Shown here: piece after piece, positions 20,706 through 23,226 of the stretch
How the letters are laid out: every line of letters begins with the position of its first letter
Numbering within the stretch: position 1 is the stretch's first letter
Position numbers and translations under genes: made by a program
The notes under the pieces: model-generated
Told to the model about the DNA's origin: nothing
Seen by the model: only the letters and a program-made list of their open reading frames with translations
The model's database searches: none
NCBI GenBank assembly: GCA_021129515.1
Contig: JAJOLD010000004.1
Span: 21,046 to 55,875 of the forward strand
Source: Minisyncoccota bacterium
GTDB lineage: Bacteria; Patescibacteriota; Minisyncoccia; Phycocordibacterales; UBA918
Direction: 5' to 3'
Length of the DNA: 34,830 nt

Positions 20706-21995
20706 ATGAAATCTTTGTTTAAAAAAATTGTTGTAGCGATACTCACCTTCGAGGCAAAGATGCTCTTGAAGCGTACCAAGCCGAACATTATTGCTATTAC
20801 TGGTAGCGTGGGGAAGACGTCGGTGAAAGATGCCATTTATGCGGTGATGAAAGACACGGTCCATACGAGGAAGAGTGAGAAAAGTTTTAATTCAGATATT
20901 GGGGTACCGCTCTCAGTCTTAGGACTGCCAAACGCGTGGAGCAATCCGTTTAAATGGATGAAAAATATTGTCGATGGCATGCTTATTGCGCTCCATCCGG
21001 GGAAGTATCCTAAACTCTTGGTACTTGAAATGGGTGTCGATAGACCAGGCGATATGGCACAGCTCACGGAGTGGATTAAGCCCGATGTCGTGGTGCTTAC
21101 CCGGCTACCCGATGTACCTGTGCATGTTGAATTTTTCAAAACACCAGAGGCCGTCATTGCAGAGAAAAAGCAACTCGTTGAAGCACTCAAGCCCGACGGA
21201 GTGTTGGTCTATAACCACGACGACGAGAAAGTGGTCGCGGTTGCTGATGAAATCAAGCAGCAGTCTATTGGATACAGTCGCACCTCACTCTCACCATACA
21301 CCGCGTCTGCTGACAAAATCGTATATGAAAATGGGCGGGCAGTTGGGTTCGAGTTTATGTTGACCCATATGGAAACCGCGCAGCTTTTTAGAGTTAATGG
21401 CTCCTTGGGTGCACAGCATGCATACAATTATGCAGCGGCAGTGGCAGTGGGGTCGGTCTTTAACGTCAGTATTGAAGATGCGCGCGATGCGCTTGCGCAC
21501 TATGTACCGCCACAGGGACGTATGCGACTCCTTCAAGGCAAGAAAGAAACACTCATTGTCGACGATACCTACAACGCCTCACCGGTTGCTATGGAAAAGG
21601 CGCTCTCGACACTCAAAGACATGAAGGGTGCCAAACGACGTATTGCCGTCTTGGGTGACATGATGGAGCTTGGACAGTTCTCAGTACGTGAGCACGAACG
21701 CATGGGGGAGCTTGTCGTATTGGCAGCTGATATACTCATTACCATCGGCGTGCGTGCACAAGGTATGGCACTTGCCGCAGAAGAGGAGGGAATGCCTGAG
21801 GAGCATATTATTCGTACCAAAAATGCACAGGAAGCAGCAGATAGACTCGAAGCAATTCTCGAACAAGGAGATATTGTATTGGTGAAAGGATCACAAAGTA
21901 TTCGTGCCGAGCGGGTAGTAGAGCGTATTATGGAATTCCCAGAGCAGGCAAAAGACTTGCTGGTGCGACAGAGTGAGATGTGGAAGCGGAGATAG
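20706..21995 (+). CDS. murF: Mur ligase family protein (MurF-like)
   Basis: NIIAITGSVGKTSVKDAIYAVM P-loop; LVLEMGVDRPGDMAQL; VDDTYNASPVAMEKAL; RIAVLGDMMELG. Confidence 0.88.
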   Translation: MKSLFKKIVVAILTFEAKMLLKRTKPNIIAITGSVGKTSVKDAIYAVMKDTVHTRKSEKSFNSDIGVPLSVLGLPNAWSNPFKWMKNIVDGMLIALHPGKYPKLLVLEMGVDRPGDMAQLTEWIKPDVVVLTRLPDVPVHVEFFKTPEAVIAEKKQLVEALKPDGVLVYNHDDEKVVAVADEIKQQSIGYSRTSLSPYTASADKIVYENGRAVGFEFMLTHMETAQLFRVNGSLGAQHAYNYAAAVAVGSVFNVSIEDARDALAHYVPPQGRMRLLQGKKETLIVDDTYNASPVAMEKALSTLKDMKGAKRRIAVLGDMMELGQFSVREHERMGELVVLAADILITIGVRAQGMALAAEEEGMPEEHIIRTKNAQEAADRLEAILEQGDIVLVKGSQSIRAERVVERIMEFPEQAKDLLVRQSEMWKRR

Positions 21996-22016
21996 AAAGC
22001 ATCTGCATAAAAAAAT

Positions 22017-22043
22017 AGCGCCCAAGGGTTAACCAAGGGCGCT
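22017..22043 (-). terminator. Minus-strand intrinsic terminator
   Basis: Minus strand AGCGCCC-ttggttaaccctt-GGGCGCT followed by ATTTTTTTA (plus 22008-22016). Confidence 0.8.
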
Positions 22044-22048
22044 TGTAT

Positions 22049-22105
22049 CTAATGAGACTTTTTCACGTCGTCGCTTCGGATAGTCATTTCGCTACCGGGA
22101 TCCAT
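22049..22105 (-). CDS. Candidate 18-aa mini-protein MDPGSEMTIRSDDVKKSH
   Basis: ATG preceded by AAGGAG (plus 22113-22118) at 7-nt spacing; own promoter-like boxes upstream and terminator 5 nt after the stop codon. Confidence 0.5.
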   Translation of the reverse strand: MDPGSEMTIRSDDVKKSH

Positions 22106-22141
22106 TGTTTTTCTCCTTATAAATTAAGGGGTAAGGGTTCG

Positions 22142-22212
22142 CAGCAACGCAAATAGAAGATAAAGAACGGCGTTGCTGGGTGACAATATATCAGATTCTT
22201 ACTTTTTGTCAT
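22142..22212 (-). promoter_or_regulatory. Promoter and structured 5' leader of the mini-ORF
   Basis: Minus strand ATGACA (22207-22212), 16 bp, TATATT (22185-22190); perfect 9-bp stem CAGCAACGC (22142-22150)/GCGTTGCTG (22170-22178). Confidence 0.6.
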
Positions 22213-22281
22213 CCCCTCATTCATGCCATATGTACAGGATGACACAAACGGCCACCTTTGCTACTACAATGTCTCTCCGTC

Positions 22282-23226
22282 CTAACCTTTGTCTTCTGGT
22301 GCGTCGGGTGGTGCAGGCATGCTCTCGTCCTCATATGCATGCTGCGACACCTCAAGCGTCATGTTGCGTTTCTCACGGGAATCCCTTTCGTAAGCAACGC
22401 CGATATACGTGACATTTGCCGATATGCAGGCATATGCTTCGCCAGCATATCCATACCCGACTACTTCGCCACCATCTGAACCAGAAAGGTATATGAATGG
22501 CGATGATGTATCTTTATCCGCATCATCATTTTCTAACTCCACGTCAACACATGCATCATTGCGTGCGTGAGCGTCGGTGACAATGAGCATAAACAATGCT
22601 TTCGGCCATGGTTCCGGATTGTAGAATATATAGGGCTCAATGTTGAATACATCGTCTTGCTCTGTAATTGTAAGCTGAAAATATCCCGCTATGCCCTGTG
22701 TATCAGCAACAACCTCATAATGAGGAATGTCGAGCAATGTGATGGTGACCATTGCCGTACCAATGAGCCTCTGGTTGGTTTCAATCTGAATCCTGACAGG
22801 CTCCTCATACAACTGAAAGAGCATGCTGGATGCAGCTGTATTCAGATTTCGGTGACGCATCTGCACACAATTGTTTGATGCCTCGTTAAACGCATGGTTG
22901 ACTGCGTTTTTGTTCAACAGAGCATACACACAGTTGTGTGTGTCTGTGGTGATTTTAATCTGAACTGCTACCAGCATATTGCCTGGTGGTTCTATGATAA
23001 AGGTTTGGGTTGTTTCGCCCAGTGTAATCCCCATTTGCTTAGACTCTCCCGGAGTCATTAGGTTTAGCTGCACTGGGTGTGTGTTGGGATCGCCATCAGC
23101 GATTACCTCCTCAGAAGTCTCGACACCACCTGGTGGCAACGACGTATCATTGGTGGTGTCATTGCTGCAAGCAGCAATCGACAGGTAAGTTGCGAGTGTA
23201 AGAAATATGATTTTTAACTTTTGCAT
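22282..23226 (-). CDS. Putative lipoprotein, no recognised domain
   Basis: MQKLKIIFLTLATYLSIAAC lipobox-type signal peptide; strong SD GGAGG just before the ATG (gaggagggaccATG). Confidence 0.8.
   Translation of the reverse strand: MQKLKIIFLTLATYLSIAACSNDTTNDTSLPPGGVETSEEVIADGDPNTHPVQLNLMTPGESKQMGITLGETTQTFIIEPPGNMLVAVQIKITTDTHNCVYALLNKNAVNHAFNEASNNCVQMRHRNLNTAASSMLFQLYEEPVRIQIETNQRLIGTAMVTITLLDIPHYEVVADTQGIAGYFQLTITEQDDVFNIEPYIFYNPEPWPKALFMLIVTDAHARNDACVDVELENDDADKDTSSPFIYLSGSDGGEVVGYGYAGEAYACISANVTYIGVAYERDSREKRNMTLEVSQHAYEDESMPAPPDAPEDKG

Follow-up and report, generated by a model that had tools for sequence, protein, structure and literature searches.

A predicted small transcription unit, possibly lineage-specific, in the gap after murF of a Kaiserbacteria-like genome

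Introduction

Dual-function sRNAs such as SR1/SR1P and SgrS/SgrT are short structured RNAs which carry a Shine-Dalgarno (SD) sequence, a small open reading frame (ORF) and an intrinsic terminator. In mRNAs stabilised by a 5' stem-loop (ompA-type leader), the transcript carries a stable hairpin at its 5' end or very close to it. Here, we describe a compact arrangement of comparable elements in a candidate phyla radiation bacterium with a tiny genome. As in the ompA-type leaders, a stable hairpin is found at its 5' end; however, this hairpin is not conserved and the 5' end is a predicted one. The dual-function sRNAs (PMC8501984, PMC4021124) are similar to it in layout only, since they have demonstrated targets and peptide activity, whereas nothing comparable is indicated for the present unit.

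Short ORFs confined to one lineage are also represented in the GMSC catalogue, in which 84.7% of the predicted smORFs are singletons (PMC11364881). As smORF singletons are, according to the warning given in that paper, enriched in artefacts, those without homologues are set aside by the catalogue (PMC11364881). The unit is comparable to the lineage-specific smORFs of this catalogue (PMC11364881), from which it differs in that a promoter and a terminator belonging to it, both predicted, can be recognised.

Results

The unit lies in a variable gap after murF

The window, i.e. the whole stretch of 34,830 nucleotides that was analysed, lies on contig C4 (positions 21046-55875) of a MAG of 857 kb (24 contigs, 99.6% complete). 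This genome is Kaiserbacteria-like (Paceibacteria), and its nearest relatives are Kaiserbacteria/Paceibacteria MAGs. The unit is located in a 286-nt gap (about 290 bases) between murF and a lipoprotein-like gene, where the following features were distinguished:

20706-21995, plus strand: murF, a cell-wall gene with Mur ligase domains (family search), convergent to the unit
22012-22043, minus strand: intrinsic terminator, AGCGCCC...GGGCGCT followed by ATTTTTTT, a strong hairpin with its tail
22049-22105, minus strand: ORF MDPGSEMTIRSDDVKKSH, 18 codons, ATG at 22105, TAG stop ending at 22049
22113-22130, minus strand: SD sequence AAGGAG (22118-22113), partly within a weak 5-bp hairpin, CCUUA-AUUUA-UAAGG
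22142-22178, minus strand: 5' hairpin with a perfect 9-bp stem, CAGCAACGC/GCGTTGCTG, and a 19-nt loop, beginning at the predicted +1
22185-22212, minus strand: predicted promoter, ATGACA (22212-22207), 16-nt spacer, TG-extended -10 TATATT (22190-22185)
22203-22248, minus strand: imperfect inverted repeat TTTGTGTCATCC...GGATGACAAAAA (11/12), the right arm of which contains the -35
22282-23226, minus strand: lipoprotein-like gene, an orphan with a signal ending in LSIAAC, upstream of the unit

The lipoprotein-like gene matched no Pfam or NCBIfam family and had no relative in the 48 other genomes of its family; a single short and weak match (E 9e-5) was obtained among 397 genomes of the order, and none in phages or viral contigs. 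Judged by these searches, this neighbour appears nearly as isolated as the unit itself. Since both are without close relatives, the gap after murF is regarded as a variable region.

Anatomy of the predicted unit

The initial annotation had proposed a minus-strand promoter, ATGACA-16-TATATT, with a start near 22178. The sequence of this predicted promoter is indeed present: it is of the sigma-70 type, agrees with the consensus at 10 of 12 positions and carries a TG before the -10, and the predicted +1 is 22178. The perfect 9-bp stem, the SD-led 18-codon ORF and the terminator with its tail, which had been described together with it, were likewise found in place. The stem (22178-22142) folds to -12.5 kcal/mol (z -6.1) and the terminator (22043-22012) to -17.4 kcal/mol (z -4.6), and the whole predicted RNA folds more stably than its shuffled counterparts (z -2.4). 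The terminator possibly also serves the upstream lipoprotein gene and, possibly but weakly, the convergent murF; its tail on the plus strand, TTGTATCT, is poor.

The AAGGAG motif lies seven bases before the ATG (AAGGAG-N7-ATG), which is a proper spacing for a ribosome binding site. The hairpin in which it is partly included has a folding energy of -3.7 kcal/mol (z +0.3), i.e. no more structure than expected by chance. As SD matches of at least 6 nt precede 58 of 236 genes of the source genome (about a quarter), SD-led translation is in use in this organism. When the unit was compared with phages by blastn, a 31-nt match (93.5%, E 2e-3) to a gut microvirus was obtained over the CCCCTTAATTTATAAGGAGAAAAACA region; it aligns window positions 22103-22133 (minus strand) with positions 1935-1965 of MG945677.1, in the microvirus leader, and concerns CCCCTTAATTTATAAGGAG. 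Because only the SD hairpin is covered, this match was treated as convergence, probably of CCCCTTAATTTATAAGGAG.

The ORF cannot be extended from an upstream start, since an in-frame TAA at 22126 closes the frame. The 18-residue peptide is hydrophilic, with a calculated pI of 5.4. Over its 17 internal codons, the ORF obtained a codon score of -0.3 bits, compared with means of -4.3 for intergenic frames and +4.6 for genes; a score as high is reached by 22% of the intergenic frames and one as low by 9% of the gene segments. Lying between the gene and intergenic values, this score is uninformative.

Chance expectation and read-through from the lipoprotein gene

The statistics were established on about 259 kb of the source genome, consisting of the window and twelve further stretches (about 224 kb), with dinucleotide shuffles as the null; the intergenic sample amounted to 40.4 kb, or 80.7 kb when both strands are counted. 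Among 4000 shuffles of the 286-nt gap, an extended 10/12 promoter was present in 19, a strict SD-ATG short ORF in 15 and a 9-bp stem in 66. In the intergenic DNA (80.7 kb, both strands), 4 extended 10/12 promoters were counted versus 1.25 after shuffling, and 5 strict SD-ATG short ORFs versus 0.95. As such a promoter turns up in less than 0.5% of the gap shuffles, and so does such an SD-ATG (about 0.4-0.5%), both are somewhat unlikely to be accidental.

Hairpins, on the other hand, are common in the gaps of this genome. The 40.4 kb of real intergenic DNA contained 106 perfect 9-bp stems, 70 of which were not terminator-like, which amounts to one non-terminator 9-bp hairpin in about 580 nt. Co-occurrence rates are also near the base-rate expectation: a promoter followed by a hairpin was found at two places in 259 kb (the unit and one other), roughly as base rates predict, and an SD sequence, a short ORF and a terminator were associated twice in the sample, a number close to that expected from 18 SD-ORFs and 82 terminators placed independently of each other. 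A further SD-led short ORF with a terminator, L084:11171 on contig C12, encodes the hydrophobic 30-residue peptide MLSIALPTIGGALVGYSILRILEILNIITY, a better candidate for a small membrane protein than the ORF of the window.

These counts bear on the main alternative, according to which the region is a roughly 240-nt 3' UTR of the lipoprotein gene (22282-23226), ended by the terminator at 22043-22012, with the promoter, the SD sequence and the reading frame being accidental. The lipoprotein gene is on the same strand, and the promoter/terminator scan reported no terminator-like site between its stop (22282) and the terminator of the unit. Furthermore, inverted repeats are abundant in the gap (the segment 22250-22200 has a folding energy of -14.6 kcal/mol), the -35 lies within an arm of a repeat-like inverted repeat, and consensus promoter matches are overall at the level of shuffled DNA (7 versus 6.4 over 4 kb). 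Against this, the 10/12 extended promoter and the strict SD-ATG are both rare in shuffles of the gap itself, and it is improbable that the two would by accident be correctly ordered and accompanied by a terminator. We consider that a 3' UTR is a less likely explanation than an independent unit, although one with enough in its favour to be taken seriously.

The inverted repeat overlapping the -35 (22203-22248) ends in TGTCATCC/GGATGACA, similar to a dispersed repeat, TGTCATYCTGA, which has 22 copies in the source genome and none in the reversed control. Examples of this dispersed palindromic repeat, TGTCATYCTGAAYTTGTTTCAGRAT..., are found at C5:16736-16810, C8:17703-17731 and C8:2378-2458. The resemblance to such REP/MITE-like repeats concerns the termini, in which about 10 bases are common, whereas the interiors differ, so that membership of the inverted repeat in this family appears doubtful. 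As only the ends match, an origin from the dispersed repeat is considered as a possibility and not as a result.

A promoter-like match in a distant relative

Among the 397 genomes of the order, the only other DNA match of the unit at E<=0.001 covered about 31 nt of the promoter and was found in G188, a distant relative belonging to another family. In this genome, a near-identical -35 to -10 stretch, AGGGGATGACAAAAAGTAA-TATCTCATATAT, is located upstream of a gene for an HTH domain fused to MurA. As its E value is 4.6e-5 per genome and about 400 genomes were searched, this match is marginal, and it would bring mild support to the predicted promoter, but no more.

In the same region, a 17-mer, GGGATGACAAAAAGTAA, has an exact copy upstream of the HTH-MurA gene of G188. 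This 17-mer was matched in 11 of the 397 genomes, as compared with 3 control matches; these matches are scattered and have no gene in common, and many are situated within reading frames or at repeat ends. The 17-mer is absent before the HTH-MurA gene of the source genome, where a different palindrome, ATATAGCATATATGCTATAT, is present. In view of the scattered matches and of this absence, an order-wide operator or conserved regulon was rejected.

By family match, the G188 protein (L086:1565-3031) is a MurA (UDP-GlcNAc 1-carboxyvinyltransferase) with an N-terminal XRE-type HTH domain. Its counterpart in the source genome (C4:14445-15893, minus strand) is 62% identical over residues 6-488. An AT-rich palindrome lies just upstream of each gene (ATATAGCATATATGCTATAT in the source genome, TATCTCATATATGATATA in G188), and HTH-MurA may be a cell-wall enzyme that controls its own expression.

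Search for relatives of the unit

The initial annotation had suggested that the ORF or the hairpin be looked for in related genomes, and the outcome was negative. When the unit was compared by blastn with 59 relatives, nothing exceeded 34 bits. Among the 397 genomes of the order, the peptide had no match at E<=1 besides itself, peptide and DNA searches gave no relative of the ORF or of the whole unit, and neither the 5' hairpin nor a homologous RNA was found. In addition, no similar small SD-led ORF follows murF in the other genera of the family or in GTDB contigs containing murF. Rfam yielded no family at gathering or permissive thresholds (best E 1.4, far below the gathering score), plasmids gave only 27-nt matches (E 0.7), and viral contigs matched neither the peptide patterns nor the lipoprotein.

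These absences are weak evidence, because no genome of the same genus was among those compared; even in the closest relatives, murF is only 66-70% identical to that of the source genome. The same limit applies to the ORF conservation with coding-type substitutions expected of a small-protein gene, which was not observed in the 397 genomes or at the murF loci, none from a congener. As for the conserved RNA structure expected of a dual-function sRNA, neither a homologous RNA nor an Rfam match was obtained.

Discussion

The unit is favoured by several features: all the parts are in the correct order and at the correct spacing, the promoter and the SD-ATG exceed the shuffled counts both in the gap and in the wider sample, the 5' hairpin, the terminator and the RNA as a whole are stable, and a near-identical -35 to -10 sequence precedes a genuine gene of the distantly related G188. 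It is disfavoured by the lack of relatives of the ORF, the hairpin or the unit, by a codon score that does not discriminate and by the frequency of hairpins. The self-contained small unit of the initial annotation stands as the best reading of the anatomy, whereas conservation was negative wherever it was looked for and codon usage did not decide in its favour. With a confidence that is tentative and close to even, we read the locus as a short transcription unit, specific to this lineage and situated in the variable gap that follows murF. Its RNA, of about 165 nt, would be protected by the 5' hairpin and may be translated.

In this scheme, RNA polymerase would start near 22178 from the sigma-70-type promoter and transcription would stop at the terminator near 22012. 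By analogy with known 5' stem-loops, the 5' hairpin would shield the transcript against decay at its 5' end, and ribosomes binding to AAGGAG could produce the 18-residue hydrophilic peptide.

The same RNA could be non-coding, with a 5' hairpin, a single-stranded middle containing the anti-SD-like CCCUUACCCCUUA and a terminator, the ORF being untranslated or irrelevant. Its size and its hairpin-linker-terminator layout fit with such an sRNA, as do the unconserved ORF and the neutral codon score; nevertheless, a strong SD sequence at optimal spacing would then be a coincidence and no Rfam family was matched, and we find this reading improbable. A decayed gene that has kept its promoter, leader, SD sequence and start and lost its body would account for the orphan status of the unit and for its position in a variable gap containing a repeat-like inverted repeat, but the N-terminal peptide has no relative in the 397 genomes and the terminator is at a normal distance after the ORF, which leaves little room for a remnant. 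Finally, the dual-function sRNA or peptide-based regulator proposed in the initial annotation is compatible with an SD sequence and an ORF inside a short structured RNA, but no result indicates a target, a partner gene, conservation or a second function, and this proposal is considered very improbable.

Most simply, the unit would be a young or orphan small mRNA/sRNA. A stronger version, in which a Kaiserbacteria micro-gene has recently arisen near a cell-wall cluster, with a promoter derived in part from a palindromic repeat and an expressed, hairpin-protected RNA of about 165 nt specifying a functional 18-residue peptide (or a peptide plus an sRNA), is speculative, and we give it little credence. 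A function of the 18-residue peptide is not supported, and the class claimed here is that of a predicted small transcription unit, with no membership beyond it. At best, the unit may be a gene that is young and specific to its lineage, and whose use is unproven.

As it stands, the unit is ordinary and changes no current picture. If expressed, it would exemplify a very short orphan gene, too small for the length threshold applied by gene callers, which is equipped with a complete set of regulatory elements although its genome is minimal.
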